Shown here in pieces: positions 2,711 to 30,873 of a stretch of 34,165 nt of DNA. Each line of letters starts with the position of its first letter. Within the stretch, counting starts at the first letter, position 1. Location of the stretch: assembly GCA_001788495.1 (NCBI GenBank), contig MGCF01000007.1, forward strand, positions 1-34,165, in the 5' to 3' direction. The stretch is from Candidatus Rokubacteria bacterium RIFCSPLOWO2_02_FULL_73_56 (lineage in GTDB: Bacteria > Methylomirabilota > Methylomirabilia > Rokubacteriales > CSP1-6). The position numbers and the translations under genes are program-made. The notes under the pieces are model-generated. The model saw nothing but the letters and a program-made list of their open reading frames with translations, had not been told where the DNA came from and did not search any database.

Positions 2711-2876
2711 CTGCCCCCTCCTCCTTGGTGGTGATCGACCACGCGTCCCCTGACTGCCCGGGGGTATTACTACCACATGTACGAGGGGAGGAAAAGGGGA
2801 AATACCATCCGTTGGGGCGCCGCGCCCCTCCCAGGAATACCCTGGAGGGGTATCAGGGCGCCCGGGACCCCGCCGC

Positions 2877-6586
<3,710 letters not shown>

Positions 6587-7802: not shown

Positions 7803-7831
7803 TTGACAACGTGCGACGCGGGGCCAATAGT
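7803..7831 (+). promoter_or_regulatory. putative sigma70-type promoter for the accessory operon
   Basis: TTGACA (7803-7808), 17-bp spacer, AATAGT (7826-7831; 4/6 to TATAAT). Sits in a local AT-richer intergenic gap. Confidence 0.5.
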
Positions 7832-7870
7832 TCGCGCCGTCGCGGCTCCTCGTCCACTCACGGTTGTCTT

Positions 7871-7945
7871 CGTCGAGGCCGGGGCCGCAAGGGGCAGCCG
7901 GTATGGGCTGGAGAGGCTCCGGGGACCTTGGACCCGGCAGGCAGC
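7871..7945 (+). ncRNA. possible structured 5' leader (two adjacent hairpins), family unknown
   Basis: CAGCC (7895-7899) pairs with GGCTG (7906-7910) around loop GGTATG; CCGGG (7919-7923) pairs with CCCGG (7933-7937). Purine-rich unpaired GCAAGGGG and GCAGGCAGCAACGG flank them. Confidence 0.3.
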
Positions 7946-8322: not shown

Positions 8323-8323
8323 G

Positions 8324-11300
8324 ATGAGACCCCTCCGCCTCGTCGCCCTCCTCGCCGCCTTGCTCGCCGCCCCCGCCGCCGCCCAGGGACCGCTCCCGGC
8401 GCCGGTCTCCCGCTGGAGCTTCGACGAGGCGGGCGGGAGCGCGGTGCTCGACGCCACGGGCACCGGCAACACCGGCGCGCTCGTCGGCATCGTGACCCGC
8501 GTGCCGGGGCTCATCGGCAACGCGGTCAGGTTCGACGGGCCGGTCGGGCGCGTCGAGATCCCCTCGAGTCCGAGCCTGGTGAGGTCGGGTGGGCACGTGA
8601 CGTTCGAGGCCGTCGTCTACGTCGACGGACCCGCCCCCGCCGCCAACGCCGCGGCGGACGGGCTGAACGTGATCGCCGCCAAGACGCAGAGCGGCTTCCA
8701 CGAGTACGGCTTCTTCCTCCAGTCGGGCACCGCCACCGTGGTCTGGACCGTCGCCGACGACGGCGGCAACGGCCGTCTGGCCGCGCCCGCGCCCCTCAGC
8801 CTCAAGCGCTGGCACCACCTGCTCGGCACCTACGACGGCGACCTCCAGAAGCTCTACGTGGACGGCGCCCTCGTCGCCTCGGCCGTTCGCGGGCCCGATT
8901 TGCTCGACGGCTCCGGGCCCGTCGTGGTCGGAGACTACGCGGCGCTCGACTTCCTGCAGGGGCCGATTTTCGGCACCGTGGACGTGGCCGCCGTCTACGA
9001 CGAGCCCGTGGACGCGGCCACCGCGCGGGCGCTCGCCCAGGCGGCGCTGAACGTCCGCGGCTACGTGAGCAACCTGGCCGGCGCGAGCGTGTCGGTGATC
9101 GATCCGGCCACGGGCAGCCTCCTCGCCACCATTCCGGTCGGGGCGGAGCCGCACGGCGTGGCCCTCACGCCGGACGGCACGCGGGCCTACGTGGCCAACT
9201 TCGCGGACGACACCGTCTCCGTGATCGACACGCGCAGCAACATGGTCGTCGGAACGCTCTTCGGATTTTCGGGCCCCGTGAGCATCACGATTGCCGCCGA
9301 CGGCAGCCGCGTCTACGTGGCGAGCCGCTCGGGCGACTTCGTCACCGTCCTCGACGCGGCCACGAACGGCGTCCTGCAGACCGTCTTGCTGCCCCCCGGG
9401 TCGCGGCCGTCGTTCATGGCGCTCTCGCCCGACGGTGACCAGCTCTGGGTCACCCACGAGCTCGACGCCGGCATCTCGATCGTGGACACGGCGACCTACG
9501 CGGTCACGTCCGCTTCGCCGCCGGGGCCGGCCGCCGAGATCGCGCTCGCGTCCGACGGCGCCCGCGCCTACGCGACGGGCTTCTTCCACGACCAGCTCTG
9601 GATCATCGACACCCTGAGCCTCACGACGCTCTCGCTCCCCGTCGGCGTCGCCCCGCACGGTGTCGCGCTCACGCCCGACGGCGCCCGCGCCTATGTGGCG
9701 AACCGGGGCACGACCGACCTGGTCCCCGTCCTGTCGAACAACACGGTGTCCGTGATCGACACCGCGACGGCCACCGTGCTCACGACGATCAGCGCCGGGC
9801 TCGGGTTCGGTCCGGAGTCGGTGGCGATCAGCCCGGACGGCACGCGCGTCTACGTGACCGCGCTCTTCTCCGACAGCGTGTCGGTCATCGACACGGCGAG
9901 CAACACCGTCGTCGGCACGATCCCGGTGGGCGCGATGCCCGCCCACATCGCCCTCGGCCCCGCCGCCGCCCTGGCGCCGCCGCCGCCGGTCACCACCGGC
10001 GCGATCCTCGGCCACGTGCGCGACAACTTCGGCAACCCGATCGGCGGCGCCACCGTCCAGCTCAACGCCGACCTCGTCGGCGGCACCTATGCGACCGTCA
10101 CGACCGCGGTGGACGGGAGCTACGCCTTCTCCGGCGTGATCCCGGGGACGTACCGGGTCAGCGCCCAGGCCGACGGCTACGCGACGCAGTGGTACAACGG
10201 CAAGTCGGTCCACCACCTGAGCGACCACGTCGGCGTCACCGCGGGTGCGACGACGAGCGGCATCGACTTCGCGCTCGTCGCGGGCGCCGGCGGCATCGGC
10301 GGCCGCGTGACCGACGGGGCGGGCAACGGCCTCGCGGGCGTCCCCGTGAGCATCCACCTGGCGACCGGCGGCTACGTGCTGAGCGCGCTCACCGACGCCG
10401 CCGGCTACTACACGACCGGGCTGCGCCTGGGTCCGGGCTTCTACAAGGCGCAGGTGGACACGAACGGCTTCGTCCAGCAGTGGTACAGCGGCGCGGCGAC
10501 CTTCGACACGGCGAGCGCGATCCCCGTGTCGGGCGGCAGCGTCACGCCCGGCGTCGACTTCGCGCTCGCCGGGGGCGCGGCGCGCATCGCCGGCACCGTG
10601 ACGCTGGCGGGCTCCGGCGCGCCGCTCGCCGGCATCCAGATCGACGTCCTCGACGCCGCCACGAGCGCGGGCGTGGCCGGGGCGCAGACGGGCCCGGACG
10701 GGACGTACGCGACGAACCAGAGCCTCGCCCTCGGGCCGTACCTGGTCCGCGCGAGCGGCCCGGGCGTGGAGCCGCAGACGCTCGGCCCGTTCATGCTCGC
10801 GGCCGGCACGACGCTCACGGTCGATTTCGTGATGGCGCCGGGCGGGACCATCACGGGCACCGTGCGCCGCGCCGCCGACTTCGCGCCCGTCGCCGGCGCG
10901 ATCGTCGAGGTCTACGACGCCGTCTCGGGCCTCTGGGTCGCCGGCAGCTTCATCACGCAGGCCGACGGGAGCTACGCGACGACGGGCCTCGCCCCCGGGC
11001 AGTACAAGGTCCGCGCGCGGACGCTCTCCGGGCTCGCGGCCCGGTACTACGTGGACTCGGCGACGATCGCCGGGGCGACGCCGGTCACCGTGAGCGCGGG
11101 CGCGACCACGCCCGGCGTGGACTTCGCGCTGGCGGCGGGCGGCGGCATCGTCGGCACGGTGACGAGCGGTGCCACGCCGCTCGGCGCCGTGAGCGTCGAG
11201 GTCTACGACTTCGCGACCAACGCGTGGCTCGATGCGGCCCAGACGGCGCCCGACGGCACGTACACGTTCGAGCGGCGCCTCGCGCCCGGCGCCTACAAGG

Positions 11301-14300
11301 TCCGCGCGCGCGCCGCGGGCTACGCCACCCAGTTCTCGAACGGCGCGCAGGCCTTCAACGCGGCCGCCGGGGTCGTCGTGGCCGCCGCCGTCGACACCCC
11401 CGTGAACTTCGACCTCACGCCGGGCCGCTCGATCACGGGCACGGTGCGGAGCAGCGGGATCCCGCTGGCCGGCGCGCTCATCGGCGTCTACGACAGCAAC
11501 AACCAGTGGGTCGAGGGCTTCTTCACCTCGGGAGCCGACGGCACGTACACGACCGAGGGCCGGCTCAAGGGCGGCGTGAGCTACAAGGTCCAGGCGCAGC
11601 TCTCCGGCTACGCCACCCAGGTGTACAACGGCCAGCGCGCCGTCAACGCGGGCACCCTCGTGGCCGTGGGGGCGACCGATGTCGGCGGGATCGACTTCGC
11701 GCTCGTGCCGGGCGGCGGCTTCACGGGCACGGTCCGGGACACGTTCGGCAACGCGATCGCCGGGGCGATCGTGGACCTCTTCGACGCCGTGTCGGGCGCC
11801 TTCCTGCAGGGCGGCTTCGTCACCCGGGCCGACGGCACTTACGACACGGGGCGCCTGCTCACGGGGAGCTACAAGGTCAAGGCCCGGGTCGTCGCGCCGC
11901 AGTCGTTCGTGGACACGTTCCACACCACCGTGGTGGACGGCAGCGGGCTCGACCTCCGCACCGCCACGACGGTGACCGCCGTCGCCGGCACGGACCTGCC
12001 GAGCGTGGACATCGCCCTGCCGCCGGGCGGCAGGATCGCGGGGACGATCCGCACCCGTGGCTCGGGCCTCGCGATCGCCAACGCCCTCGTGGTCGCGTCG
12101 CGGCTCCAGGCCAACAACTTCTCCGGCACCTTCTCCACCCGGACGGACGCGACCGGCGCCTACGAGCTCCGGGGGCTGCGCGACGGCGAGTGGGTCCTGC
12201 GCGTCGAGGCCGCCGGCCACCAGGTGGGCCACCACAGCGGCAGTCCCGACGCCACCGTCCCGGACAACGCCGCGGCCACGCCCATCAAGATCACCGGCGC
12301 CGGCACCGTGAGCGCCGTGGACCTGAACCTCGCGCCGGGGGGCGGAAGCATCAGCGGCCGCGTGACGCGGATCGGGAGCGGCACCCCCGTGCCCACCAAT
12401 ACGCAGGTCCAGGCCCTGATCGGCGCGGGCAGCGTGTTCCCGCGCGCCAATTTCGTCACCGGGGCCGGCACCGACGGCAACGGCAACTACACGATCTCGG
12501 GCCTGCCGCCCGGTCAGTACCTGGTCCAGGCTGCGAGCACGGGCGCGACGGCCGTGGGCTGGTATCCGACCGAGGCGATTTCCGCCGCCTCGGCGTTCTC
12601 GGTCACCGTGACGGACGGCGCGACGACGGCCGGCATCGACTTCGCCGTGCCGACCTCGCTCCGGACCATCAGCGGCACGGTCAGGGACACGAGCGGCAAC
12701 CCGATCCGCTTCGGCACCGTCGGCGCCGTCAACCCGTTCTTCCAGTTCACCATCCGCGGCGCGGCGCTGAACGGCGACGGCACCTACACGATCGGCGGCC
12801 TGCCGCCCGGCAAGTATCTCGTCCGGGCGACGACCGAGACGACCTACGAGCAGCGGATGTACCCCGACGAGACCGTCGTGCCCGCGGGGACGCCGGTGGA
12901 CGTCACCGTGGCCGGCCAGAGCGGGATCGATCTCGTCCTGCCCGCCACCGGCAGCACGATCGCCGGGCGCGTGCTGACCCTGAGCGATCCCGACAACCCG
13001 CTCTCGCCGCTGGTCCCGGTGCCCGGCGTGCAGGTCAGCGTGCGCAACTTCACCGACAACAACGCCGGGAGCGCGATCACCCAGCTCGACGGGACCTACC
13101 TCGTCCGCGGCGTGCCACCGGGCGAGTACAAGCTCCGGATGCAGAACGGCCCCGACACCCTCCGGACGCCTCACGGCCCGGGCTTCACGATCCGCTACTA
13201 CACCGCGAGCGGCACCGGCGCGGCCATCTTCGACGACGCAAGCTTCGTCCACGTCGACCCGGGCTCGACCGTGACGGGCATCGACCTCACCGTTGCCCCG
13301 GCGACGGGGCGCATCACCGGCACGGTGACCGCCGAGGACACGGGCGCGGCCGTGGTCAACGGCGCCGTTGCGATCCGCGAGTCCACGAGCGGCGCGATCG
13401 TCGGGACCGCGGTGACGCGGGCCGACGGGACCTTCGTCGTGGACAACCTCGCCCCCGGCAGCTACAAGCTCCGCGCCTCGGCACCTGGCTTCGCCGCGCA
13501 GTGGTGGTCCGGCCAGGACACGCGCGAGGCGGCCGACGAGATCGCGGTCGCCGCGGGCACGGTCGGCGGCGTCGACTTCGTCCTGACGCCGAGCCAGGCC
13601 GCCTTCAGCGGCTTCGCGTTCGACACGGCCAGCCAGCCGCTCAGGGACGTCGCGATCACGCTCTACGACGCCGCGACCTTCGGCGTGGACGCCGACGGCC
13701 TGGTGACCGGCTTCGTCACGGGCGTGGGCGTCACCGACTCCCAGGGGCGCTTCGTCGCCGACAACATCAAGCCCGGCAGCTACCTCGCCCTGGCCCGGGC
13801 GCTGGGCTACGCGCGCGTGTACCACGGCCAGCGACCCGACGCCGCCAGCGCCGCGCTCTTCCCGATCACCGTGACGAGTCCGCCGGGTCCGGACGCGCCG
13901 TCGGTGACCTTCACCATGACGCGCACGTCCGACGTCCGGGGGACGATCAGCTACACGGGCCCGCAGGTTGGGGCGCTCAGGATCGGCCTCTTCTGCGACC
14001 CCGGGCTGACGGAGCGCGTGTACGGTCTCGTCGTCCCGTCGCCGGTCTTCCCCCAGGCCTACCAGTTCGGCTCGCCCGCGCCCGACACCCGCGGCCTCCT
14101 GCCCGCGGCCGTCGCCTGCCCGGCGAGCGAGGCGTACTTCGTGGCCGCGTTCGTGGACAGCACCCCCAACGGCGCGCGGGACGCGACCGAGCCCGCGGGC
14201 GCGGTCGGCGGCGTGCCGCTGGCGGAAAACGCCACGGCCAGCGGCACCGACCTCACGCTGACCGACCCGGCCGTCACCTTCGCCGACGTCTCCATCACCA

Positions 14301-17300
14301 AGACGGCGTTCCCGATCGTGCCGATCCTGCTCGGCGGTCAGCTGACCTACACGCTGACCGTCGGCAACGCGGGACCCGGCATCGCCAGCGGCATCGCGCT
14401 CTCCGATCCCCTGCCCGCCGGCACGGCCTTCGCCGCGATCAGCGTGCCCCAGGGCGTGTGCGTCACGCCGCCGGTGGGCGAACCTGGCACCGTGAGCTGC
14501 GCCCTCGGCGCCCTCGTCGCCGGCGCGAGCAAGACCGTCACGCTCACCGTGGCGACGACCGCGACGGGCTCCATTGACAACACGGCCACGGTGACCACGA
14601 CGTCCACCGATCCGAATGGCGCCAACAACAGCGCGAGCGCTCCCGCCTCCGTCTTCGAGACGGGACGCATCACCGGCCGGGTCACCGCCACCGACGGCGT
14701 GTCGCCGATCGCCGGCGCCTTCGTCGAGGTGTTCGACGCCGGCACGGGCGCCTGGGTCGCCGGCGGCATCGTCACGGCCGGCGACGGGACCTACACGACC
14801 GGCGAGCTCACCCCGGGGCAGTACAAGGTCCGCGCCAGCGCGTCGATCCCCGGCCTCGCCGCGACGTTCTACGCGGGCGCCCCGAACCTGACCCTGGCGA
14901 CGGCGGTGACGGTGACGACGGGCGCCACGACGCCGAATGTGGACATCGCGCTCGCGGCCGGCGGCGGCATCGTCGGCACCGTCAGCAGCGGCGGCACGGC
15001 CATCGCGTTCGCGGGCATCGAGGTCTACGACGCCACGACCGGCTTCTGGGTGGACAGCACCCAGACCTCGACCGACGGGCTGTACACGTTCTCGCAGCGC
15101 CTGGCGCCCGGCACCTACAGGGTCCGCGCGCGGGCGAGCGGCTACGCGACCGTGTTCTCGAACGGCGTGCAGGCGTTCAGCGCGGCGGCGAACGTCCTCG
15201 TGGCCGCCGGCGCCGACACCACGGTGGACTTCAACCTCACGGCGGGCCGCTCGATCACGGGCACGGTGGCGAGCGGCGGCGTCCCACTGCAGGGCGCCTG
15301 GATCACCGTCTTCGACGCCAACAACCAATGGGTCGAGGGCGTGGCTTCCGCGGCCGATGGCACGTACACGACCGAGGGGCGCCTGCTGCCCGACCGAAGC
15401 TACAAGGTCCAGGCACAGCTCGACGGCTACGTCACCCAGGTCTACAACGGCCAGCGCACGCTCGGCGCCGGCACTCTCGTGGCCGTGGGCACGACCGACG
15501 TCGCCGGGATCGATTTCAGCCTGGCGCAGGGCGGCGGCTTCAAGGGCACGGTCAGGGACACGAACGGCACCCCGATCGGCGGGGCGATCGTGGATCTGTT
15601 CGACCCCGTGACGGGCTTCTTCCTCGCGGGCGGGCTCCCCACGGCGGCCGACGGCACCTACGACACCGGCCGGATCCTCGGCGGTGCCTACAAGGTGAAG
15701 GCCCGCGTCCCGGCGCCCCTGTCTTTCGTGGATACCTTCCACACCACCGTGCCCGACGGCAGCGGCGTGGACCTCAGGACGGCGACGACGGTGACGGCCG
15801 TCGCCGGCCAGGACGTCCTCGGCGTGGACATCGCGATGCCGCCGGGCGGGCGGATCAGCGGGACGATCCGGACGCGCGGCACGCTGGCGCCGATCGCCAA
15901 CGCGTCGGTGTTCGTGGGGCGGGTCGCGGCGAGCAACTTCTCCGGGGCCTTCTTCGTGCGGACCGACGCCGCCGGCACCTTCGAGGTCCGCGGGCTGCGC
16001 GACGGCGAGTGGACCGTCCGCGTCGAGGCGGCCGGCCACATGGTCGGCTACTCCAGCGGCGTCCCGGACGCGCCCGGCCCCGACGGCGGTGTGGCCCTGC
16101 CGATCGCGATCAGCGGCGCCGGCACGGTGAGCCCCGTGGACCTGCACCTGACCCCGGGTGGAGGCCGGATCAGCGGCCGCGTCACGCGGAGCGGCGGCGG
16201 CGCCGTGCCCGCGGGCACGCAGATCCAGGCCCTCATCGGCGCTGGCAGCATGTACCCGCGGGGCAACTTCGTGACCGGCGTCGGCACCGACGGCAACGGC
16301 AACTACACGATCTCCGGGCTCCCCCCGGGCGTCTACACGCTCCAGGCCGTCGGCAACCAGTTCGCGAACGGCACGGCGATGGGCTGGTACCCGACCGCGG
16401 CGACCTCGCCCGCCTCGGCGGTGCCCGTCACCGTGGTGGACGGCGCCACGACCGCGGGCGTGGACTTCTCGGTGCTCGGCCTGACCGGCGGCGCCTCCCC
16501 GCGGACGATCAGCGGCACCGTGCGGGACGTGAACGGCAACCCGATCCGCTTCGGCACCGTCGTCGCCATCGATCCCTTCTTCCAGTTCGGGATCCGGGGC
16601 ACCGCGCTGAACGGCGACGGGACCTACACGATCCCGACCCTGCCGCCCGGCAGGTACCTCGTCCGCGCGCAGACCGAGACGACCTACGAGCAGCGGATGT
16701 ACCCGGACGAGACCGTCGTGCCCGCGGGCTCGCTCGTGGACGTCACGGCGGGCAACCAGGTCGGGATCGACCTCGCGCTGCCGGCGACGGCGGGGACGAT
16801 CCAGGGCCGCGTCATGACCCCGAGCGATCCGGCCAACCCGCTCTCGCCGCTGGTCCCGGTGCCCGGCGTGCAGGTGAGCGCGCGCAGCTTCTTCGACAAC
16901 AACGTCGGGAGCGCCATCACCCGGCTCGACGGAACCTACCTGATCCGCGCGCTGGCGCCGGGCGACTACATCATCCGGATGCAGAACGGCCCGGACACGG
17001 TCCGCGAGCCGGCCGGGCCGGGCTTCGCGATCCGCTACTACACGGCGAGCGGCACCGGGGCGGCGATCTTCGACGACGCGAGCTTCGTCCACGTCGCCGC
17101 CGGCCAGAGCACCACGGACATCGACCTCGTCCTCGCCCCGGCAACGGCGAGCCTCGCGGGCACCGTGACCGTGCAGGGCACCGGCGCGCCCGTGGTCGGC
17201 GGCGCCGTCTCGATCCGCGAGGCGGCCTCCGGCGCGGCCGTCGCGGTCGCGGTGACCCGGGCCGACGGCTCGTTCCTCGCCAACAACCTGGCGCCCGGCA

Positions 17301-20300
17301 GCTACATGCTCCGCGCCTCCGCGCCCGGCTACGCCGCCCAGTGGTCGTTCGGCAAGGACACGCTGACGGCGGCCGACGCGATCACGGTGACGACCGGCGC
17401 CGTGAGCAACGCCAACTTCGTCCTGACGCCGAGCCAGGCCGCCTTCACCGGCCGGGCCTTCGCGACCGACGGCGAGCCGCTCAGGAACGTCGGCATCGTG
17501 CTGTTCGACGCCGCGACCTTCAGCCTGGACGCGCTCGGGCGGACGACGGGCTTCGTCACCGGCACCAACGTGACGGACTCCCAGGGCCGCTTCATCGCGA
17601 CCAATATCAAGCCGGGCGCCTACGTCGCGCAGGCGCGCGCGCTCGGCTATGCGCGGGTGTTCGCGGGCGGGCGTCCGGACGCGGCAGGGGCGCTGCTCTC
17701 GACGATCACGGTGACGAGCCCGCCGGACCCGGACGCGCCGGCGGTGAACTTCAACATGGCGCTGACGGCCGACATCCAGGGGGCAATCGCCAACGCCGGC
17801 ACGCAGACCGGGGCGCTCAGGATCGGCCTCTTCTGCGACGCCACGCTGGTCCAGCCGGTGTACACGCTTGCGATCCCGGCGCCGAGCTTCCCGCAGGCTT
17901 ACCAGTTCGGCCGGCCGGGCCCGGACACCCGCGGCCTGCTGCCGTCGAGCCTCGCCTGCCCGGTGAGCCAGCAGTACTTCGTCGGCGCGTACGTGGACAC
18001 GAACTCCAATGGGGTGCAGGACGCGACGGAGCCGTCCGGCACGTTCGACGGCGCGACCGCGGTCGGGGTGGCCGTGGCGGAGGGCGCGACGCTCGTGGGC
18101 CGCGACTTCGCGCTCGTCGAGGATCTCGGCGCCGGCGGCACGACGACGACGGCCCTCGCGATCGTCTCGACCTACGTGCCGGCGGGCGGCGGGCTGGCGA
18201 CGCTCGGCGACATCCGGATCGACGAGCACGGCGCGCGGGCCCTGTCGACGGCGGGCCGCATCCGGGTGACGCTGCCGGGCGGCCTCGCGTTCTCCATGCT
18301 CCCCGTGGTCTCGACCGGGCCGAGCTGGGGCCTCGGCATCGTCCAGACCGGCCCCGACGCCCCGCGGCTCGAGAGCAGCGGCGCGGTGTTCTCGTTCGCC
18401 CTCGCGTCGCGCTCGAGCGGCGGCGCCGCGTCCATCATCGTTTCCGGGATGCTCGTGACGGCCTCGACGGGCTTCGTCCCCGACGGCGCTGCCGTCCCCG
18501 TCTCCGTCGCGGTCGACGCGAGCCTGCCGAACGGGCTCACGCCCGAGTCGGTCCAGGTCGCGATCTTCCTCGCGCCCCCGCCCGACCCCGTCTTCACCGG
18601 GATCGCGATCGACAGCAACGCGGCGGGGCTCGGCGTGACGCGCACGGTCGTGCTCAACGGCCTCAACTTCGGCCAGCTCGATTTCACGAACTCCGACCTG
18701 AGCCTGCGCGACACGATCGACTTCGGCCCGGGCATCACGGTGATCGGGGCGCCCTCCGTCAGCCCCGACGGGAAGCAGATCACGGTCACGATCCAGGTGG
18801 ATCCCAACGCGGACGCCGGGCCTCGCACCGTGTCGATCATCGACAGGGGCCCGGACGGTCAGCAGACGATCATCACGGCCACGCTGCCCGGCGGCGGCAG
18901 CTTCAGCGTGGACCCCCTGCCCGTCGTGACCGCGGCGGGCACGGGCGAGACGGGCGCGGGCCCGCTCTTCGCCGATCTGAAGAAGCAGACGCTCTACGTC
19001 GGCGGGAGCAACTTCAGGCCGCCCACGACGACGCCGTCGAACCTCGTCGTCCAGGTGGGCGGTGGCGGGATCACGGTTGACCCGACGAGCGTCGTGTTCC
19101 TGTCGGACATGCGCCTCGCGGTCGAGGTGGACGTGGCCGCTGGCGCCGACGCGCTCTCGCCGCGGACCGTGACGGTGACGAATCCCGACCTCGGCACGAC
19201 CACGAGCGCGGCGATCCTCGCAATCGCGCCGCGCCCGCCCGACGCGCCCGAGGGCCTGCCGGCGCCGAAGAACTCCGGCTCGTCCACGTCGACGACGCCG
19301 CCCTCGCTCTCCTCGATCAGCCCGGCCGCCGCGCGCACGGGCGCCTCGGTGACGATCAGCGGCACCAACCTGGGGAGCGCGACGGCGAGCAAGGTCACGT
19401 TCACGGCGGCGAACAACGCCAAGGTCACGGTGAGCCCGACCAGCGGCGGCGCCTCGAGCCTCGCGGTGCTGGTCCCGGCGACGGCGGTGGACGGCCCGGT
19501 GACGGTCGCGAACGGCACGCTCCAGAGCAGCAACTCGCTCGCGTTCACGGTCACGAACCCGCGGCCGTCCGGGGTGAGCCCGGGCAGCGCCTTCCAGGGC
19601 GACACGCTCACGCTCGACGTCACCGGCACCAAGTTCCAGAGCGGGATGACGGTGCAGCTCAGCCCGTCCACCGGCGCGACGCTCGGCGCGGTGATCTTCG
19701 TGGACGCGACCCGCGTCCGGATCCCCGTCACGCTCGCCGCGAACGCACCGACCGGGCTCAGGAGCGTGGTCGTCACGAACCCCGACGGCGGCACGGCAAC
19801 GCTCGCCAACGCGTTCGAGGTGAAGCTCAGATCGGCGACGACGATGACGCTGGCCCTGCGGCGGGCCGACGGCACGCCGCTCGACGTCCCGGCCTGGCTC
19901 CCCAGCGTGGACGGCGTCAGCGTCACGCTCGACGCGACCGGCCGGTGCACGGCCAAGACGGTGACGCCGACCCTCCTGATCGTGGAGGCCCAGCTCGCCG
20001 GCACGTCGCTGCCGCCGCAGCTCACGTTCACGATCACGCCGTCGGCGATCAAGGGCACCGCGGCGAACGAGGACTGCGAGATCGACCCCGTGACGCTGCT
20101 GCCGACCGCGGTCCCGACCAACGACTTCGGCATCGGCCAGGTCGCAACGATGCCGAGTCTCACCGCCCCGCTCTCCGTGACCGTCGGCGGCGCCAACGGC
20201 GTCTACCAGGCCCAGCTCGCCTCCTGGGACTGGGGTGGCAAGGTGCGCATCGAGGTGACGGACAGCCCGACCTCGCCGACGGTGGCGGGCAGCCTGCGGC

Positions 20301-21508
20301 TGCCGGTGGACGCGGACGGCGACGACCTGCCCGACGTGTACGAGACCAACCTGGTCGCCGGCGTGGACAACGCCGACGCCACCGGCGTCAACGTCCTCGA
20401 CGCCGGCAAGCAGGACCAGAACGCCAACGGCCTGAGCGACCGCGACGACCGCTTCGCGCGCGACGGCCTCACGAACTTCGAGAAGTACCGCGGCGTGTAC
20501 CTGCGCGGGCCGCTCAACGGGACCGCGAGCGGGCCGATGCTCGACCACGTCAGGCTCGGCGCGGGCAAGCGGAACCTCTTCGTCCGCGGGCGCGGCTTCA
20601 GCACGGACCCGAACGTCCCGGCCGGCTCGTGCGGCGTGGACAACACGGGCAGGCCCATCGCGCAGGACGCCGCGCTCCTCGCGCGGTTCCCGTGCCCGGC
20701 CTTCGAGGTGGGCGACGCCTACCGCGAGCTCGGCATCCGGGTGTGGGACGTGGCGGCCTCGTTCACGGGCGCCTCCGTCCTGCCGACCAAATCGTACGCC
20801 GACCCGACCAAGCCGACGCTCGACCTGGCGACGGTGACCTACGACGCGGTCAACTGCGCCGGTGGCCAGACGTGCGACCATTCGGGCAAGACCGGCATCC
20901 GCCAGTGGCAGTTCCCGACCCTCGGCTACAGCACCTTCGGGTCGGCCACGACGTACGGCGACGCGCGGGTGTTCGCCCGGGCCGTGAAGGGCTACTTCAC
21001 CGACCGGCCATACCTCCACCAGGAGAACCTGACGGGCAAGTACCTGCCCATGGCCACCACCGGCGGGGTCCCGATGCTCGCGCCCGTCACGACGGTCTGC
21101 GACAGCGGCTCGGGGGGCTCGGACAACGGCGTCGCCGACTCGGGTGAGTGCAAGGACGCCGACGGCCTGCTCGGCGGCGACGTCTTCGTGGCGGGGCAGT
21201 TCAGCCTCTCCGTGAGCGCGATGGACGTGAACAACGACGACTGCGTCGAGCTGCCGTTCGTCGCCGACCCGACGACGCTCACGGCGTGCGACGCCAGGGC
21301 GGCGTCGGCGTCGGGCCCGCAGGCGACCTTCCGCCAGGTGGTGCGCGCGATCGTCACGCACGAGCTGGGCCACGCCCTCGGCGTGAACGTCCACACGACG
21401 GACGTGACGGACGTCATGTACCAGTACTCGATCAACTGGACGCGCGACAACCACTTCTCGTCGCAGGCGGGGCAGCTCATCCAGGTCCACAACAAGGGGC
21501 TCCAGTGA
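8324..21508 (+). CDS. giant (4394 aa) exported multidomain protein: LamG-like, YVTN beta-propeller, about 25 CarboxypepD_reg/Cna-B-like modules, DUF11, IPT/TIG-like repeats, acidic Ca-binding-like motif, C-terminal HExxH metalloprotease-like domain
   Basis: Uninterrupted 13.2-kb ORF; N-terminal MRPLRLVALLAALLAAPAAAQG signal peptide; repeated I-x-G-x-V...G-x-Y...L-x-P-G-x-Y-x-V-x-A modules; THELGHALGVNVH near the C-terminus. Confidence 0.9.
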   Translation: MRPLRLVALLAALLAAPAAAQGPLPAPVSRWSFDEAGGSAVLDATGTGNTGALVGIVTRVPGLIGNAVRFDGPVGRVEIPSSPSLVRSGGHVTFEAVVYVDGPAPAANAAADGLNVIAAKTQSGFHEYGFFLQSGTATVVWTVADDGGNGRLAAPAPLSLKRWHHLLGTYDGDLQKLYVDGALVASAVRGPDLLDGSGPVVVGDYAALDFLQGPIFGTVDVAAVYDEPVDAATARALAQAALNVRGYVSNLAGASVSVIDPATGSLLATIPVGAEPHGVALTPDGTRAYVANFADDTVSVIDTRSNMVVGTLFGFSGPVSITIAADGSRVYVASRSGDFVTVLDAATNGVLQTVLLPPGSRPSFMALSPDGDQLWVTHELDAGISIVDTATYAVTSASPPGPAAEIALASDGARAYATGFFHDQLWIIDTLSLTTLSLPVGVAPHGVALTPDGARAYVANRGTTDLVPVLSNNTVSVIDTATATVLTTISAGLGFGPESVAISPDGTRVYVTALFSDSVSVIDTASNTVVGTIPVGAMPAHIALGPAAALAPPPPVTTGAILGHVRDNFGNPIGGATVQLNADLVGGTYATVTTAVDGSYAFSGVIPGTYRVSAQADGYATQWYNGKSVHHLSDHVGVTAGATTSGIDFALVAGAGGIGGRVTDGAGNGLAGVPVSIHLATGGYVLSALTDAAGYYTTGLRLGPGFYKAQVDTNGFVQQWYSGAATFDTASAIPVSGGSVTPGVDFALAGGAARIAGTVTLAGSGAPLAGIQIDVLDAATSAGVAGAQTGPDGTYATNQSLALGPYLVRASGPGVEPQTLGPFMLAAGTTLTVDFVMAPGGTITGTVRRAADFAPVAGAIVEVYDAVSGLWVAGSFITQADGSYATTGLAPGQYKVRARTLSGLAARYYVDSATIAGATPVTVSAGATTPGVDFALAAGGGIVGTVTSGATPLGAVSVEVYDFATNAWLDAAQTAPDGTYTFERRLAPGAYKVRARAAGYATQFSNGAQAFNAAAGVVVAAAVDTPVNFDLTPGRSITGTVRSSGIPLAGALIGVYDSNNQWVEGFFTSGADGTYTTEGRLKGGVSYKVQAQLSGYATQVYNGQRAVNAGTLVAVGATDVGGIDFALVPGGGFTGTVRDTFGNAIAGAIVDLFDAVSGAFLQGGFVTRADGTYDTGRLLTGSYKVKARVVAPQSFVDTFHTTVVDGSGLDLRTATTVTAVAGTDLPSVDIALPPGGRIAGTIRTRGSGLAIANALVVASRLQANNFSGTFSTRTDATGAYELRGLRDGEWVLRVEAAGHQVGHHSGSPDATVPDNAAATPIKITGAGTVSAVDLNLAPGGGSISGRVTRIGSGTPVPTNTQVQALIGAGSVFPRANFVTGAGTDGNGNYTISGLPPGQYLVQAASTGATAVGWYPTEAISAASAFSVTVTDGATTAGIDFAVPTSLRTISGTVRDTSGNPIRFGTVGAVNPFFQFTIRGAALNGDGTYTIGGLPPGKYLVRATTETTYEQRMYPDETVVPAGTPVDVTVAGQSGIDLVLPATGSTIAGRVLTLSDPDNPLSPLVPVPGVQVSVRNFTDNNAGSAITQLDGTYLVRGVPPGEYKLRMQNGPDTLRTPHGPGFTIRYYTASGTGAAIFDDASFVHVDPGSTVTGIDLTVAPATGRITGTVTAEDTGAAVVNGAVAIRESTSGAIVGTAVTRADGTFVVDNLAPGSYKLRASAPGFAAQWWSGQDTREAADEIAVAAGTVGGVDFVLTPSQAAFSGFAFDTASQPLRDVAITLYDAATFGVDADGLVTGFVTGVGVTDSQGRFVADNIKPGSYLALARALGYARVYHGQRPDAASAALFPITVTSPPGPDAPSVTFTMTRTSDVRGTISYTGPQVGALRIGLFCDPGLTERVYGLVVPSPVFPQAYQFGSPAPDTRGLLPAAVACPASEAYFVAAFVDSTPNGARDATEPAGAVGGVPLAENATASGTDLTLTDPAVTFADVSITKTAFPIVPILLGGQLTYTLTVGNAGPGIASGIALSDPLPAGTAFAAISVPQGVCVTPPVGEPGTVSCALGALVAGASKTVTLTVATTATGSIDNTATVTTTSTDPNGANNSASAPASVFETGRITGRVTATDGVSPIAGAFVEVFDAGTGAWVAGGIVTAGDGTYTTGELTPGQYKVRASASIPGLAATFYAGAPNLTLATAVTVTTGATTPNVDIALAAGGGIVGTVSSGGTAIAFAGIEVYDATTGFWVDSTQTSTDGLYTFSQRLAPGTYRVRARASGYATVFSNGVQAFSAAANVLVAAGADTTVDFNLTAGRSITGTVASGGVPLQGAWITVFDANNQWVEGVASAADGTYTTEGRLLPDRSYKVQAQLDGYVTQVYNGQRTLGAGTLVAVGTTDVAGIDFSLAQGGGFKGTVRDTNGTPIGGAIVDLFDPVTGFFLAGGLPTAADGTYDTGRILGGAYKVKARVPAPLSFVDTFHTTVPDGSGVDLRTATTVTAVAGQDVLGVDIAMPPGGRISGTIRTRGTLAPIANASVFVGRVAASNFSGAFFVRTDAAGTFEVRGLRDGEWTVRVEAAGHMVGYSSGVPDAPGPDGGVALPIAISGAGTVSPVDLHLTPGGGRISGRVTRSGGGAVPAGTQIQALIGAGSMYPRGNFVTGVGTDGNGNYTISGLPPGVYTLQAVGNQFANGTAMGWYPTAATSPASAVPVTVVDGATTAGVDFSVLGLTGGASPRTISGTVRDVNGNPIRFGTVVAIDPFFQFGIRGTALNGDGTYTIPTLPPGRYLVRAQTETTYEQRMYPDETVVPAGSLVDVTAGNQVGIDLALPATAGTIQGRVMTPSDPANPLSPLVPVPGVQVSARSFFDNNVGSAITRLDGTYLIRALAPGDYIIRMQNGPDTVREPAGPGFAIRYYTASGTGAAIFDDASFVHVAAGQSTTDIDLVLAPATASLAGTVTVQGTGAPVVGGAVSIREAASGAAVAVAVTRADGSFLANNLAPGSYMLRASAPGYAAQWSFGKDTLTAADAITVTTGAVSNANFVLTPSQAAFTGRAFATDGEPLRNVGIVLFDAATFSLDALGRTTGFVTGTNVTDSQGRFIATNIKPGAYVAQARALGYARVFAGGRPDAAGALLSTITVTSPPDPDAPAVNFNMALTADIQGAIANAGTQTGALRIGLFCDATLVQPVYTLAIPAPSFPQAYQFGRPGPDTRGLLPSSLACPVSQQYFVGAYVDTNSNGVQDATEPSGTFDGATAVGVAVAEGATLVGRDFALVEDLGAGGTTTTALAIVSTYVPAGGGLATLGDIRIDEHGARALSTAGRIRVTLPGGLAFSMLPVVSTGPSWGLGIVQTGPDAPRLESSGAVFSFALASRSSGGAASIIVSGMLVTASTGFVPDGAAVPVSVAVDASLPNGLTPESVQVAIFLAPPPDPVFTGIAIDSNAAGLGVTRTVVLNGLNFGQLDFTNSDLSLRDTIDFGPGITVIGAPSVSPDGKQITVTIQVDPNADAGPRTVSIIDRGPDGQQTIITATLPGGGSFSVDPLPVVTAAGTGETGAGPLFADLKKQTLYVGGSNFRPPTTTPSNLVVQVGGGGITVDPTSVVFLSDMRLAVEVDVAAGADALSPRTVTVTNPDLGTTTSAAILAIAPRPPDAPEGLPAPKNSGSSTSTTPPSLSSISPAAARTGASVTISGTNLGSATASKVTFTAANNAKVTVSPTSGGASSLAVLVPATAVDGPVTVANGTLQSSNSLAFTVTNPRPSGVSPGSAFQGDTLTLDVTGTKFQSGMTVQLSPSTGATLGAVIFVDATRVRIPVTLAANAPTGLRSVVVTNPDGGTATLANAFEVKLRSATTMTLALRRADGTPLDVPAWLPSVDGVSVTLDATGRCTAKTVTPTLLIVEAQLAGTSLPPQLTFTITPSAIKGTAANEDCEIDPVTLLPTAVPTNDFGIGQVATMPSLTAPLSVTVGGANGVYQAQLASWDWGGKVRIEVTDSPTSPTVAGSLRLPVDADGDDLPDVYETNLVAGVDNADATGVNVLDAGKQDQNANGLSDRDDRFARDGLTNFEKYRGVYLRGPLNGTASGPMLDHVRLGAGKRNLFVRGRGFSTDPNVPAGSCGVDNTGRPIAQDAALLARFPCPAFEVGDAYRELGIRVWDVAASFTGASVLPTKSYADPTKPTLDLATVTYDAVNCAGGQTCDHSGKTGIRQWQFPTLGYSTFGSATTYGDARVFARAVKGYFTDRPYLHQENLTGKYLPMATTGGVPMLAPVTTVCDSGSGGSDNGVADSGECKDADGLLGGDVFVAGQFSLSVSAMDVNNDDCVELPFVADPTTLTACDARAASASGPQATFRQVVRAIVTHELGHALGVNVHTTDVTDVMYQYSINWTRDNHFSSQAGQLIQVHNKGLQ
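8396..9043 (+). other. LamG/concanavalin A-like domain (within giant CDS)
   Basis: SRWSFDEAGGSAVLDATGTGNTGALVG...GNAVRFDG...VTFEAVVYVDG...LKRWHHLLGTYDGDLQKLYVDGALVAS...VVVGDY: LamG-3-like pattern. Confidence 0.8.
9050..9958 (+). other. YVTN-type beta-propeller domain (within giant CDS)
   Basis: Repeated VSVIDPATGSLLATIPVGAEPHGVALTPDGTRAYVAN / VSVIDTASNTVVGTIPVGAMPAHIALGP blades. Confidence 0.9.
9995..10849 (+). repeat. three CarboxypepD_reg/Cna-B-like modules outside the duplicated block (within giant CDS)
   Basis: ILGHVRDNFGNPIGGATVQL...GYATQWYNGK; IGGRVTDGAGNGLAGVPVSI...VQQWYSGA; IAGTVTLAGSGAPLAGIQIDV...LGPYLVRASG. Confidence 0.75.
10850..14270 (+). repeat. super-repeat copy 1: ordered block of 11 beta-sandwich modules (within giant CDS)
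   Basis: Starts ITGTVRRAADFAPVAGAIVEVYDAVSGLWVAG; runs through GRSITGTV...NNQWVEG, SFVDTFHTTV, TYEQRMYPDETVVPAG, NPLSPLVPVPGVQVS, RYYTASGTGAAIFDDASFVHV, SQAAFSG, GALRIGLFCD, FPQAYQFG. Same order in copy 2. Confidence 0.88.
14276..14660 (+). other. DUF11/TIGR01451-like module between the two super-repeat copies (within giant CDS)
   Basis: VSITKTAFPIVPILLGGQLTYTLTVGNAGPGIASGIALSDPLPAGTAFAAISVPQGVC...VSCALGALVAGASKTVTLTVATTATGSIDNTATVTTTSTDPNGANNSA is a textbook DUF11 repeat. Confidence 0.92.
14669..18125 (+). repeat. super-repeat copy 2: same 11-module order as copy 1 (within giant CDS)
   Basis: Starts ITGRVTATDGVSPIAGAFVEVFDAGTGAWVAG and repeats every landmark of copy 1 at an offset of about 3.82-3.84 kb, including a 42-nt identical stretch (12994-13035 = 16834-16875). 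Confidence 0.88.
18926..19840 (+). other. IPT/TIG-like Ig repeats (within giant CDS)
   Basis: PSLSSISPAAARTGASVTISGTNLGSATASKVTF...; PSGVSPGSAFQGDTLTLDVTGTKFQSGMTVQLS...GLRSVVVTNPDGGTATLANAFEV; an earlier degenerate copy ends PRTVTVTNPDLGTTTSAAIL. Confidence 0.75.
20309..20491 (+). other. acidic Ca-binding-like (TSP3/EF-hand-like) segment (within giant CDS)
   Basis: DADGDDLPDVYETNLVAGVDNADATGVNVLDAGKQDQNANGLSDRDDRFARDGLTNFEKY: two DxDxDxLxD-type loops. Confidence 0.6.
20492..21508 (+). other. putative C-terminal zinc metalloprotease domain (within giant CDS)
   Basis: THELGHALGVNVHTTDVTDVMYQYSINW: HExxH, downstream Gly and His, and a DVM Met-turn-like motif. Confidence 0.6.
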
Positions 21509-23448
21509 GCCGCCGGACGCTCGCTCCCCTGCTCGTCGCGCTGGCGCTCGTGCTCGCCGGCGCGGCCGCGGCGCGCGCCCAGGCGCCCCCGGCGGGCCCG
21601 CCCCTCAAGGCCACCATCGTGCTCGGGCAGGGCGCGCCCGCCGACGGCGTCTTCCCCGCGGGGGTGCCGGTCCCGATCGTCGTCCAGATCGAGAACGTGA
21701 GCGGGGCGGACGTGGCGACCACGGAGGGTTTCTCGTCCACCGATTTCTTCCGCCGCCTCTACTTCGTGGACCCCCAGGGCGGAATCGTCACCAACAAGGT
21801 CGAGGAGCAGATCCACACCGACAGCCGCGTGTTCATGTGCCTCTCGCGGCGGGGGGCGCTCCAGCGTCCGGCGATCCCCGTCGCGCCGATCGAGGTGCTG
21901 GTCGGGACCGGCCCCGGCGCGCCGGGCAACTTCTTCCGCGAGTACGAGATCGATGACGCGCGGAGGTTCTACGACCTCTCCCGCCCGGGCCGGTACAGCG
22001 TCACGGCCCGCATCCCGCTCCTCGTGTTCACGCTCTCCGATCCCGCCGCGGTCATCGACGACTGCGACCAGCTCCCGGGCCTGGTGGCGGCGAACGTCGC
22101 GGCGCTGACCGGCCGCGCGGAGTTCACGATCGTGTCCAACACCCTCGAGTTCGAGGTGGACAGCCTGCCGCCGCAGCCGCCAGCGACGACGGCGACGGCG
22201 GCGCCGGCCCCGGGCCCGTCGGGCTGGACGCGGCAGAGCGTCACCGTGAGCTTCACGGCCACGAGCCCGAGCAACATCCCCATCCAGCGGATCGTCATCC
22301 AGACCTCCGGGGCGCAGCCCGGTGTCCAGGACCTGTCGGGGACGAAGGGCTCCGTCACGATCACGGCCGACGGGCAGACGTCCGTCGCCTTCCACGCCGA
22401 GGACATCGCCGGGAACATCGAGGCGACGCAGGTCCTGACGGTGAAGGTGGACGGCACCCAGCCGATCGTCACCTGTGAGGCGCCCGACACGGGCTGGCAC
22501 GCGACCGACGTCACGCTGGCCTGCACGGCCCAGGACCCCGCCTCCGGCCTCGCGAACACGTCCGACGCCAGCTTCAGCCTCGCGACGGCCGTGCCGGCCG
22601 GCACCGAGACCGACGCGGCGACGACGGACGGCCGCACCGTCTGCGACGTCGCGGGCAACTGCGTCACGAAGACCGTCGGCGGGATCAAGGTGGACAAGAA
22701 AGCGCCGGCCATGACGCTCACCTCGCCCACGCCCGACGCCGTCTACGACGTGGGCCAGGTGGTGCTCGCCGGCTACGGGTGCACGGACGGCGGCTCGGGC
22801 CTCGTGGCCTGCGCGGGCCCGGTGGCCAGCGGCGCGGCGATCGACACGGCGACGCCGGGCGTCACGACCTTCACCGTCAACGCCATGGACGCGGTCGGCA
22901 ACGCCTCGAGCGCGTCCGTGACCTATCGCGTCGGGTCCCAGGACACGACGCCGCCGGTCCTGACGGTTCCGAGCAGCGTCACCGTGGACGCGACGAGCCC
23001 GGCGGGCGCCCTCGTGACGTACGCGGTCTCGGCCACCGACGACGTCACGCCCTCGCCGACCGTCGCGTGCGCGCCCGTGTCGGGGAGCACGTTCCCCATC
23101 GGGACGACCACCGTCTCGTGCACCGCGACGGACGCGGCGGGCAACACCACGAGCAAGAGCTTCTCGGTGATCGTCCAGGCGGCGGCGGCCCAGGTCGCCA
23201 ACCTGATGGACACGGTCAGGAGCTTCAACCTCAAGCAGGGGATCACCAACAGCCTGGACGCGAAGCTCCAGAACGTCGAGGACGCGCTGACCTCGGCCAA
23301 GAAGGGCAGCGTCACGTCGACCTGCAACCAGATGAGCGCGTTCATCAACGAGACGAAGGCCCAGTCGGGCAAGGCGCTGACGGTCGACCAGGCCACCCAG
23401 CTGCAGTCGGCAGCGACCAGGATCAGGGCCGTCATCGGCTGTCCGTGA
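21505..23448 (+). CDS. exported protein with Ig-like regions, HYR domain and C-terminal FIMAH-like helical domain
   Basis: GTG start at 21505 overlaps the giant gene's TGA (GTGA). Signal peptide TLAPLLVALALVLAGAAAARAQA; PVLTVPSSVTVDATSPAGALVTYAVSATDDVTPSPTVACAPVSGSTFPIGTTTVSCTATDAAGNTTSKSFSVIV (HYR); KQGITNSLDAKLQNVEDAL...QMSAFINETKAQSGKALTVDQATQLQSAA (FIMAH-like). Confidence 0.85.
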   Translation: MSRRTLAPLLVALALVLAGAAAARAQAPPAGPPLKATIVLGQGAPADGVFPAGVPVPIVVQIENVSGADVATTEGFSSTDFFRRLYFVDPQGGIVTNKVEEQIHTDSRVFMCLSRRGALQRPAIPVAPIEVLVGTGPGAPGNFFREYEIDDARRFYDLSRPGRYSVTARIPLLVFTLSDPAAVIDDCDQLPGLVAANVAALTGRAEFTIVSNTLEFEVDSLPPQPPATTATAAPAPGPSGWTRQSVTVSFTATSPSNIPIQRIVIQTSGAQPGVQDLSGTKGSVTITADGQTSVAFHAEDIAGNIEATQVLTVKVDGTQPIVTCEAPDTGWHATDVTLACTAQDPASGLANTSDASFSLATAVPAGTETDAATTDGRTVCDVAGNCVTKTVGGIKVDKKAPAMTLTSPTPDAVYDVGQVVLAGYGCTDGGSGLVACAGPVASGAAIDTATPGVTTFTVNAMDAVGNASSASVTYRVGSQDTTPPVLTVPSSVTVDATSPAGALVTYAVSATDDVTPSPTVACAPVSGSTFPIGTTTVSCTATDAAGNTTSKSFSVIVQAAAAQVANLMDTVRSFNLKQGITNSLDAKLQNVEDALTSAKKGSVTSTCNQMSAFINETKAQSGKALTVDQATQLQSAATRIRAVIGCP

Positions 23449-23527: not shown

Positions 23528-24100
23528 ATGTCCAGGACAAGAGTCGTCGGGCTTCTGATAATCGCGGCGATGGCCGCGTCGATCCTCGCCCCCGGCCTCG
23601 CGAGCGCCGGCGGCGGCTTCGCCCCGCCCCCGCCGGGATTCGTGCTCAACACGACCAAGGACGTGTCGGCCGTCGTCGTGCTGGATCCCCACGGCCCCGT
23701 GGTCTTCGGCACCCCGGCGACCGCGACGGGCACGTTCGGCGCGATCACCTTGAACCGCAAGCACTTTGCCCCGGCGTCCGCGGTCTTCAAGGTGCCCGGG
23801 TTCGGCAGCCTGGGCGAGCTCGCGCTCGGCTGCGACCTCTCGGCCTCGACCGCACGGTTCGTCACGGTGCCGCTGAACGGCTGGATGTCCCAGGAACTCC
23901 TCGAGATTCTCTTCCAGCAGGTCGGGATCACGATCGGACCGCTGACCGCGCCGGTCCTGGTCCCCGCGGTCACGCAGATCGTGAGCCAGCAGTGCTCGCC
24001 CGCTCCGCCACCGGACGACACGGCGTTCAACCCTGGCTTCCTGGTCATGGAAGTCAAGATCGGCTTCTTCGCTGCGCCTGGCACGCCGATCCCGAAGTAG
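23528..24100 (+). CDS. small exported protein of unknown function (190 aa)
   Basis: ATG at 23528 with GAAAGGAG upstream; signal peptide MSRTRVVGLLIIAAMAASILAPGLASAGGG; no family recognised. Confidence 0.75.
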   Translation: MSRTRVVGLLIIAAMAASILAPGLASAGGGFAPPPPGFVLNTTKDVSAVVVLDPHGPVVFGTPATATGTFGAITLNRKHFAPASAVFKVPGFGSLGELALGCDLSASTARFVTVPLNGWMSQELLEILFQQVGITIGPLTAPVLVPAVTQIVSQQCSPAPPPDDTAFNPGFLVMEVKIGFFAAPGTPIPK

Positions 24101-24167: not shown

Positions 24168-26033
24168 ATGACGCCTCGCCGTCCACCGGCCGTCGGGCCG
24201 CTCGCCCTTCGCGCCCTCGCCCTCGGGGCCCTGGCGCTGACGCTCCTGGCTTGCCAGCAGGCCCCGCTCGAGGGGATCGTCAGCTCGAAGACGTACCGGC
24301 CCGAGATCGTCGGGCGCGTGGGCGTGGTCGCGGCGGGGCGGCACTTCGCCGCGGAGGCGGGGCTCCGCATGCTGGCGCGCGGGGGCAACGCCGTGGACGC
24401 GGGCGTCGCGGCGACGTTCGCCGCGGCGGTGACCGAGATCTCCCACTTTGGCCTCGGCGGCGAGGTGCCGATCGTGCTCTACCTCGCCGACCGGCGCGAG
24501 GCGGTCGTGATCAGCGGCCAGGGCACGGCGCCGGCGGCGGCGTCCCCCGAGGCCTTCCGCCGCTTCCGCTTGATCCCGCCGAACGGCCCGTCGGCCGGGA
24601 CGATCCCCGCGGTCGTGGACGCGCTCGCGCTGGCGCTCGCCGAGTTCGGCACGCTCTCGCTCGCCGAGACGCTCGCGCCTGCGATCGAGCTGGCCGACGG
24701 CTTCCCCTGGTACGACTTCCTGACGCGCTATCTACGGCCCGAGCTGGAGAAGATGTTCGCCTTCCCGAGCGGCGCCCGCGTGTATCTGCCGAACCGGACG
24801 ATCCCCGCGGTCGGCAGCATCTTCCGCCAGCCGGACCTCGCGCGGACGCTGCGCGCCCTCGTCGAGGCCGAGCGCCAGCACGCGGCGGAGGGCCGGAAGG
24901 CCGCGATCTCCGCGGCGCGCGACCGCTTCTACCGCGGCGACGTCGGCCAGCGGATCGCCGCCGCCGTGCAGCAGGCCCAGGGCCTCATGACGGCGGCCGA
25001 CCTCGCTGGCTACCGGGGCCGCATCGAGCCGCCGACCCGGGGGACCTTCACGACGCGCCACGGGACGTTCGAGGTGTTCAAGACCGGCTTCTGGGGTCAG
25101 GGCCCGGTCCTGCTCCAGGCCCTCGGGCTCCTCCAGGGGTTCGACCTCGAGCGGATGGGCCACAACTCGGCCGCGTACATCCACACGGTGACGGAGGCGC
25201 TCAAGCTGGCGCTCGCCGACCGCGACGGCTTCTACGGCGATCCCGACTTCGCGAAGGTGCCGACGCGTGGTCTCCTCGCGCCGGCCTACGCGGAGGCGCG
25301 CCGCGCCCTGATCGATCCCGCTGTCGCGAGCGCCGAGGTGCGCCCGGGCGACCCCTGGAAGTTCGAGGGCTCGGCCGGGCCCGCGCGCCGGCTCCGTGTC
25401 GCGCGCGCGACCCCCGCGAGCTCCGAGGATCGGGCGCTGCCCGAGCTCGACACGACGACCGTCGACGTCGCCGACGCCCGGGGCAACCTCTTCTCCGCCT
25501 CGCCCTCGTCGGCGTGGTTCTCGGGCGGCGTGTTCATCGCCGGCGACACGGGCGTGCCGCTCGGCAACCGCATGCAGGCCTTCGTCCTCGAGGCGGGGCA
25601 CCCGAACGTCGTCCAGAGCGGCAAGCGGCCGCGCACGACGCTGACCCCGACGGTCGTGCTCCGCGACGGCAAGCCCTTCCTGGCGCTCAGCAGCCCCGGC
25701 GGCGACACCCAGGAGCAGCAGGCGCTCCAGGTGCTCCTGAACATCGCGGTCTTCGGCATGCGCCCGCAGGAGGCCGTCGAGGCGCCGCGGTTCAACACCG
25801 GCCACTACCGGGAGAGCTTCCGCCGGCACGCCTTTCGCGGCGGCGTCCTGCAGGTCGAGAGCCGGATCCCCGCGGGCGTGGTCGAGGCGCTCGAGCAGCG
25901 CGGGCACAAGGTGGCGGTCATTGGCTCGTTCATGATGAACACGGGGACGGTCGTGGCCGGCGTGGACCCGGAGCACGGCACGCTCTTCGGCGCCGCGGAC
26001 GTCCGGCGCCAGCGCTTCGTCGTCGGCTGGTAG
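24168..26033 (+). CDS. gamma-glutamyltransferase-family lipoprotein
   Basis: Lipobox LTLLACQQ; HFAAEAGLRMLARGGNAVDAGVAATFAAAVTE; DTTTVDVADARGNLFSASPS (nucleophile Thr region); RPRTTLTPTVVLRDGKPFLALSSPGGDTQEQQALQVLLNI. Confidence 0.88.
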   Translation: MTPRRPPAVGPLALRALALGALALTLLACQQAPLEGIVSSKTYRPEIVGRVGVVAAGRHFAAEAGLRMLARGGNAVDAGVAATFAAAVTEISHFGLGGEVPIVLYLADRREAVVISGQGTAPAAASPEAFRRFRLIPPNGPSAGTIPAVVDALALALAEFGTLSLAETLAPAIELADGFPWYDFLTRYLRPELEKMFAFPSGARVYLPNRTIPAVGSIFRQPDLARTLRALVEAERQHAAEGRKAAISAARDRFYRGDVGQRIAAAVQQAQGLMTAADLAGYRGRIEPPTRGTFTTRHGTFEVFKTGFWGQGPVLLQALGLLQGFDLERMGHNSAAYIHTVTEALKLALADRDGFYGDPDFAKVPTRGLLAPAYAEARRALIDPAVASAEVRPGDPWKFEGSAGPARRLRVARATPASSEDRALPELDTTTVDVADARGNLFSASPSSAWFSGGVFIAGDTGVPLGNRMQAFVLEAGHPNVVQSGKRPRTTLTPTVVLRDGKPFLALSSPGGDTQEQQALQVLLNIAVFGMRPQEAVEAPRFNTGHYRESFRRHAFRGGVLQVESRIPAGVVEALEQRGHKVAVIGSFMMNTGTVVAGVDPEHGTLFGAADVRRQRFVVGW

Positions 26034-29420: not shown

Positions 29421-29422
29421 GG

Positions 29423-30873
<1,451 letters not shown>

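Follow-up and report, generated by a model that had tools for sequence, protein, structure and literature searches.

The Rokubacteria, uncultured bacteria widespread in soil, obtain their nutrients in ways known mostly from genomes. The stretch of Rokubacteria DNA analysed here ("the window", 34,165 nucleotides in full) encodes an exported protein of 4394 residues, BigP, which raises the question of what a protein of this size does for the cell. A first-pass annotation of the window had listed the domains of BigP and proposed roles for it. That description holds, but it overlooked a four-gene locus, the duplication of a stalk block and the homologues of BigP, and its functional guesses were too specific. 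We consider the conserved four-gene locus to be more important than the description of BigP alone, and found no earlier account of such a Rokubacteria locus in the open-access literature.

BigP is encoded by a single, genuine reading frame

The frame was found exactly as first described, running uninterrupted from an ATG start, and its mature product would have a mass of about 440 kDa and a pI of 4.7. Third-position GC is 97%, and since the GC of the three codon positions is uniform over ten segments (62-70%, 50-60% and 96-99% in each), BigP is coding along its whole length. Even at 73% GC, a stop-free run of this length has a chance of about 1e-29. The opposite strand carries a frame of 4398 aa (8294-21490) whose translation is arginine-rich and, by inspection, without recognisable domains; this is the usual GC-rich shadow of BigP.

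This equally long antisense frame, together with the origin of the contig in a MAG, could suggest that BigP is an assembly artefact or a chance frame in GC-rich DNA. However, such a reading conflicts with the uniform codon-position signal and the strong Pfam scores. In addition, a read stretch that had been duplicated would not give two stalk blocks so different from each other, and three further assemblies contain homologues that have this tail and stalk. The assembly artefact, which the first-pass annotation had itself named as something that would refute its description, is therefore ruled out, and we give the artefact or chance reading practically no weight.

BigP combines a predicted binding head, a long stalk and a protease-like tail

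The features of BigP and its surroundings are collected in Table 1. Pfam bears out the domain list and domain order proposed earlier, inspection does the same for the signal peptide, and the architecture as a whole, for which no named family had been recognised, is indeed covered by no Pfam or NCBIfam model. Between stalk block 2 and the two TIG domains lies a stretch that was assigned to no domain. NCBIfam matches to hydrazine synthase, L-NosZ and PQQ propellers were set aside as generic YVTN similarity. No surface-anchoring signal was recognised in BigP; by inspection, its C terminus, which ends ...VHNKGLQ, has no LPXTG motif, hydrophobic stretch or basic tail of the kind that marks Gram-positive sortase-anchored adhesins. 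Behind the promoter-like site at 7803, a possible small exported ORF (7864-8322, plus strand) ends one base before the BigP ATG. It has no Pfam family over the cut-off, no counterpart was noticed in the homologous locus G013 described below, and it may represent either a leader gene or a spurious frame.

Table 1. Positions of BigP, its parts and the neighbouring genes in the window
Feature	Position	Strand	Basis or remark
Promoter-like TTGACA-17-AATAGT upstream of BigP	7803..7831	+	10/12 consensus match only
BigP (giant exported protein)	8324..21508	+	ORF, codon composition; 4394 codons
Sec-type signal peptide MRPLRLVALLAALLAAPAAAQ	8324..8386	+	By inspection
LamG / concanavalin-like domain (Laminin_G_3, aa 77-231)	8552..9016	+	Pfam
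YncE/YVTN beta-propeller (aa 234-540)	9023..9943	+	Pfam, NCBIfam
Three lone CPD-reg modules (aa 561-837)	10004..10834	+	Iterated HMM
Stalk block copy 1 (aa ~841-1967)	10843..14225	+	10 CPD-reg modules and a divergent end module
DUF11 domain (aa 1988-2106)	14285..14641	+	Pfam
Stalk block copy 2 (aa ~2113-3247)	14661..18066	+	77.6% DNA identity to copy 1 over 3.4 kb
IPT/TIG domain (aa 3660-3742)	19301..19549	+	Pfam on pieces; better of two stretches
Thrombospondin-3-like calcium-binding loops (DADGDDLPD...DQNANGLSDRDD; from aa 3993)	20300..20509	+	Inspection; invariant acidic alignment columns
Zinc-binding motif HELGHALGVNVH (aa 4346-4357)	21359..21394	+	HExxHxxGxxxH
Candidate Met-turn DVMY, Met4365	21416-21418	+
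g2, exported Ig/HYR-type protein	21505..23448	+	GTG start overlaps BigP stop
g3, small exported protein	23528..24100	+	No Pfam family
GGT-family Ntn hydrolase	24168..26033	+	PF01019, 390.6 bits; lipobox LLAC by inspection
Class III cyclase - AAA_16 - TPR protein	26046..29315	-	Convergent with GGT

BigP heads a rare four-gene locus

The order BigP, g2, g3 and GGT, all in one direction, is shared by the source genome, G013 and G047, which represent three genera. Our phylum set comprised 95 genomes including the source, and a search of the 94 others with the BigP tail found only G013 and G047. The four genes co-occur in these 3 of 95 genomes and nowhere else among them; likewise, the tail, the stalk block, the g2 N-terminal domain, g3 and the GGT clade are each found in exactly the same three. 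Since only the three loci went into the g2 and g3 alignments, these searches are biased towards the source, G013 and G047, but they should be able to reveal further close members.

The N-terminal ~215 residues of g2 are conserved across the three loci, and the overlap between BigP stop and g2 start is seen in two of them. Further g2 matches in the phylum are confined to the later Ig or C-terminal parts. The C-terminal ~85 residues of g2 (window 22923-23448; VANLMDTVRSFNLKQGITNSLDAKLQ...) match exported-looking frames in G016 and G002 (model positions 435-521), and possibly form an unrecognised C-terminal domain. The parts of the locus are of known kinds; it is their combination and the tail domain that are without a family model.

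A scan of named genomes gave no match when one tail sequence served as the query, and two loci when a three-sequence tail alignment did. One is the G013 locus (QHSL01000081.1, Candidatus Rokuibacteriota bacterium AR31), from the same family as the source genome. The other, VBAL01000072.1, is a contig of 8.1 kb that ends before g2 and is possibly misbinned; it was assigned to ANGP1 isolate NP_4, now Candidatus Segetimicrobium genomatis (Sysuimicrobiota). No BigP relatives were found in the viral contigs, plasmids or phages searched, or in 42 further genomes from the phylum to which the Segetimicrobium homologue belongs.

The stalk consists of beta-sandwich modules in a duplicated block

The CarboxypepD_reg family (PF13620) matches BigP over its cut-off in 22 stretches (E 8e-177, 574.5 bits), and the CPD-reg modules found by an iterated HMM number 23, slightly fewer than the ~25 claimed earlier. 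Stalk copies 1 and 2 are the same block of ~1,130 residues. The G013 homologue also has two blocks, with DUF11 ahead of each, and the Segetimicrobium homologue has one; the G047 fragment shows one, its contig end cutting the sequence so that a second block further upstream is possible. A seven-module block is conserved among the homologues, and in a tree of this shared segment the two BigP copies pair together, as do the two G013 copies (support 100), and the single G047 block adjoins the G013 pair. These data are compatible both with stalk doubling that occurred separately in two lineages and with copies that were later homogenised.

The AlphaFold2 model obtained from six stalk blocks is almost all-beta (mean pLDDT 67, pTM 0.40), and its best Foldseek partners include B. 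anthracis TIE, the BcpA pilin, SdrD B and Cna B repeats. Global TM-scores reach only 0.07-0.14 by query length, which is unsurprising for domains flexibly placed along a chain; therefore, the module fold is supported and the overall shape is not. The long stalk of beta-sandwich modules inferred earlier agrees with this all-beta model and with nearest solved structures that include Cna-B-type adhesins and pilins. The label Cna-B-like stands for the fold and falls for isopeptide bonding: among 59 modules no column has Lys above 39% or Asn above 25%, and Lys is rare in the BigP stalk (22 in 2725 residues). Isopeptide cross-linking, which needs a lysine and asparagine that are not conserved here, is ruled out.

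BigP resembles CarboxypepD_reg and Cna-B-type repeat proteins (SdrD B, BcpA, Spa pilins, Cna B) in its tandem transthyretin/Cna-B-like stalk under a binding head, and differs from them in having neither the isopeptide residues nor an LPXTG tail and in carrying a protease-like domain at its C terminus. A second comparison is offered by Giant1-5, giant bacterial surface proteins of Apilactobacillus (PMC12863079). They share with BigP a signal peptide, an N-terminal binding domain, a long repeat stalk and a conserved C-terminal segment, but their repeats are alpha-helical, their head is a beta-solenoid, and they have no GGT operon.

The CPD-reg region is also weakly similar to the Kustd1514 S-layer family of anammox bacteria (NCBIfam, E 3e-16, 58 bits), as it might be if BigP were an S-layer or sheath subunit. 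The cut-off of that family is 1400 bits, however, and the match is probably due to shared Ig-like repeats. Furthermore, the known Methylomirabilis S-layer protein, mela_00855, is a 31-kDa protein unrelated to BigP (PMC8671808). We rejected S-layer identity on these two grounds; given also that BigP occurs in so few genomes of the phylum (3/95) and that its protease and head domains are ill-suited to a lattice, a role of this kind is very improbable.

The conserved tail resembles metzincin proteases around a zinc motif

The tail is the most conserved part of BigP, with 45-56% identity among homologues over about 555 residues, whereas the N-terminal binding head is swapped: LamG and propeller in BigP, DUF7948 and an SBBP propeller in G013, and a weak choice-of-anchor R match in Segetimicrobium (the G047 contig ends before the head). 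Together with one or two stalk blocks and one tail, the swapped heads form a small natural series for the evolution of a giant surface protein.

The protease-like character assigned to the C terminus earlier is upheld by a metzincin-like motif, but the Peptidase_M10 match (PF00413, on pieces) is sub-threshold, at E 5e-4 and 20.3 bits against a cut-off of 24. Fragilysin (TIGR03935) scores 20.4 bits against 190.7, and fragilysin and MMP-1 are the nearest solved relatives among PDB sequences, with weak E values of 0.3-0.8. The tail shares HExxHxxG...H and a Met-turn-like methionine near the C terminus with metzincins (PF00413, TIGR03935 and the MXAN_2677/2678 family NF041905), and its likeness to them is confined to the surroundings of the zinc motif. 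All matches lie below curated cut-offs, and the ~555 residues, rich in cysteines and calcium loops, have no family model. All four homologues retain eight cysteines and several calcium-loop acidic residues without change, as would fit a domain that folds outside the cytoplasm. AlphaFold2, run on the 555-residue tail from only three sequences, gave a pLDDT of 36.

In two of the three complete tails, HELGHALGVNVH and HELGHLTGVNTH, one extra residue precedes the third His (HExxHxxGxxxH), a spacing that is not standard among metzincins; in G047 the homologue has a motif of the canonical form, HELGHAVGARH. None of the three complete tails departs from HExxH, the third His or the Met-turn Met, and the Met always lies 8 residues past the third His (DVMY, DIMY, DIMF). 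All three complete proteins also end in HNK[GK]LQ, right at the stop codon.

Some of these features would suit a structural or adhesive surface fibre, with a protease domain that is dead or self-processing, a tail that serves only to mature, anchor or end the fibre, and a locus for attachment rather than digestion. The nonstandard motif in two homologues and the sub-threshold protease match point that way, as does the stalk, which makes up most of the BigP mass, and the shared terminal residues could be a recognition tail. However, those residues could be no more than the final helix of the fold, a GGT-family hydrolase belongs to the gene run in all three complete loci, and the invariance of the zinc-motif and Met-turn residues in tails that have otherwise diverged so far is as expected for retained catalysis. 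We therefore consider a purely structural fibre unlikely, though a serious competitor.

The locus GGT departs from its family at a substrate-binding position

The predicted GGT nucleophile is Thr429 (25452-25454), and the small-subunit chains of solved GGTs align from residue 429. Arg114 of E. coli GGT binds the gamma-glutamyl alpha-carboxylate, and Gln118 of the locus GGT aligns with it. The nearest solved structures are 6j3a and 6j3i, of which 6j3a likewise has Gln at this position. Compared with its family (PF01019), the locus GGT has a complete Ntn-hydrolase domain and nucleophile threonine, and is set apart by a lipoprotein-type signal and by being encoded beside BigP, g2 and g3 in three loci. 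This Gln-for-Arg114 GGT accompanies BigP in every complete locus.

It is also the most conserved product, 72-75% identical to the source copy compared with 38-45% for g2 and g3 and 38-56% for the other products overall, and its clade is found only alongside BigP, the next-best GGTs in the 95 genomes being at most 50% identical to it. One could therefore read the locus the other way round, with the GGT-like hydrolase as the key enzyme, a polymer or peptide at the cell surface as its substrate, and a scaffold for it made up of BigP, g2 and g3. Homologues with a replaced arginine can catalyse other reactions, e.g., LmbA, a GGT homologue without gamma-glutamyl transfer or hydrolysis that cleaves C-C bonds (PMC5519988, PMC6085292). 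On the other hand, these genomes also share 74-80% identity in TsaD. Since surface repeats usually change faster than enzymes do, the identity contrast within the locus proves little, and a protease-tipped protein of 4394 residues would be an odd scaffold. We regard a GGT-centred modification system as quite improbable.

The similar identities of GGT and TsaD also bear on the patchy distribution of the locus. They suggest that a locus inherited vertically from long ago and lost in places is as probable as one acquired by recent horizontal transfer.

A tentative role in handling extracellular protein

Our preferred reading, held with somewhat less than even confidence, is that BigP is a secreted surface adhesin-protease heading a four-gene locus for the capture and digestion of extracellular proteinaceous material. 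The LamG domain and propeller would bind a surface or polymer, and the roughly 23 transthyretin/Cna-B-like modules would build a long stalk, reaching some 80-100 nm at full extension. The TIG and calcium-binding domains would hold the C-terminal metzincin-like zinc protease, which may cut bound or neighbouring proteins. The exported partners g2 and g3 would probably serve display or assembly of BigP, and the lipoprotein GGT-family amidohydrolase may act on released fragments. That this GGT takes part in peptide digestion is guesswork, because the arginine by which GGTs bind gamma-glutamyl groups is missing from it.

The signal peptide predicts export of BigP, presumably to the outside of the cell; the source genome encodes GspD, the type II secretion secretin, over its curated cut-off. 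Protease activity and a protein substrate are likewise predicted from sequence. Neither predation nor a biofilm-matrix role, both proposed earlier, is specifically supported, as nothing in the locus indicates them.

The rare gene set is a testable candidate for the handling of extracellular protein in some Rokubacteria, and two of its enzymes differ from their families at the active site, one in the zinc motif (canonical in one homologue) and the other at Arg114. A bolder version, which we think unlikely as a whole, would make it an undescribed extracellular digestion system with a swappable head, an adjustable stalk, a metzincin-like protease whose zinc motif is shifted and an unusual surface GGT-type hydrolase for a non-gamma-glutamyl substrate, under cyclase regulation.

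The surroundings of the locus

A regulatory role for the adjacent cyclase is speculation. The cyclase-AAA_16-TPR gene is convergent to GGT in the source and G047 and lies upstream of the giant gene in G013. Genes of this type are numerous, with 38 first-look candidates in the source genome, and the cassette-adjacent cyclases of G047 (63%) and G013 (60%) are the best matches to the source gene in their genomes. Orthologues in G011 and G016 (67%) lack the cassette and lie, as in the source, close to tsaD and a ctpA-like gene. Therefore, either the cassette sits here next to a gene that was there before it, or the two travel together elsewhere.

On the minus strand of the window (26046-34165), the cyclase-AAA-TPR gene, an NtrC-type regulator, tsaD and a ctpA-like frame stand in the same order as in G011 and G016. 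The Segetimicrobium contig carries, upstream of the homologue (L039 1077-1589), a broken, rearranged cyclase remnant matching the cyclase beside the source locus. In G013, an RHS/YD-repeat-like protein of ~1800 residues, recognised by inspection, lies directly 3' of GGT (L036 4353-9803, plus strand); it is absent from that place in the source window. Finally, an ordinary TPP riboswitch (Rfam RF00059, 61.7 bits) at 3804-3914 on the plus strand precedes a ThiC-like coding sequence in a frame ending at 5613.
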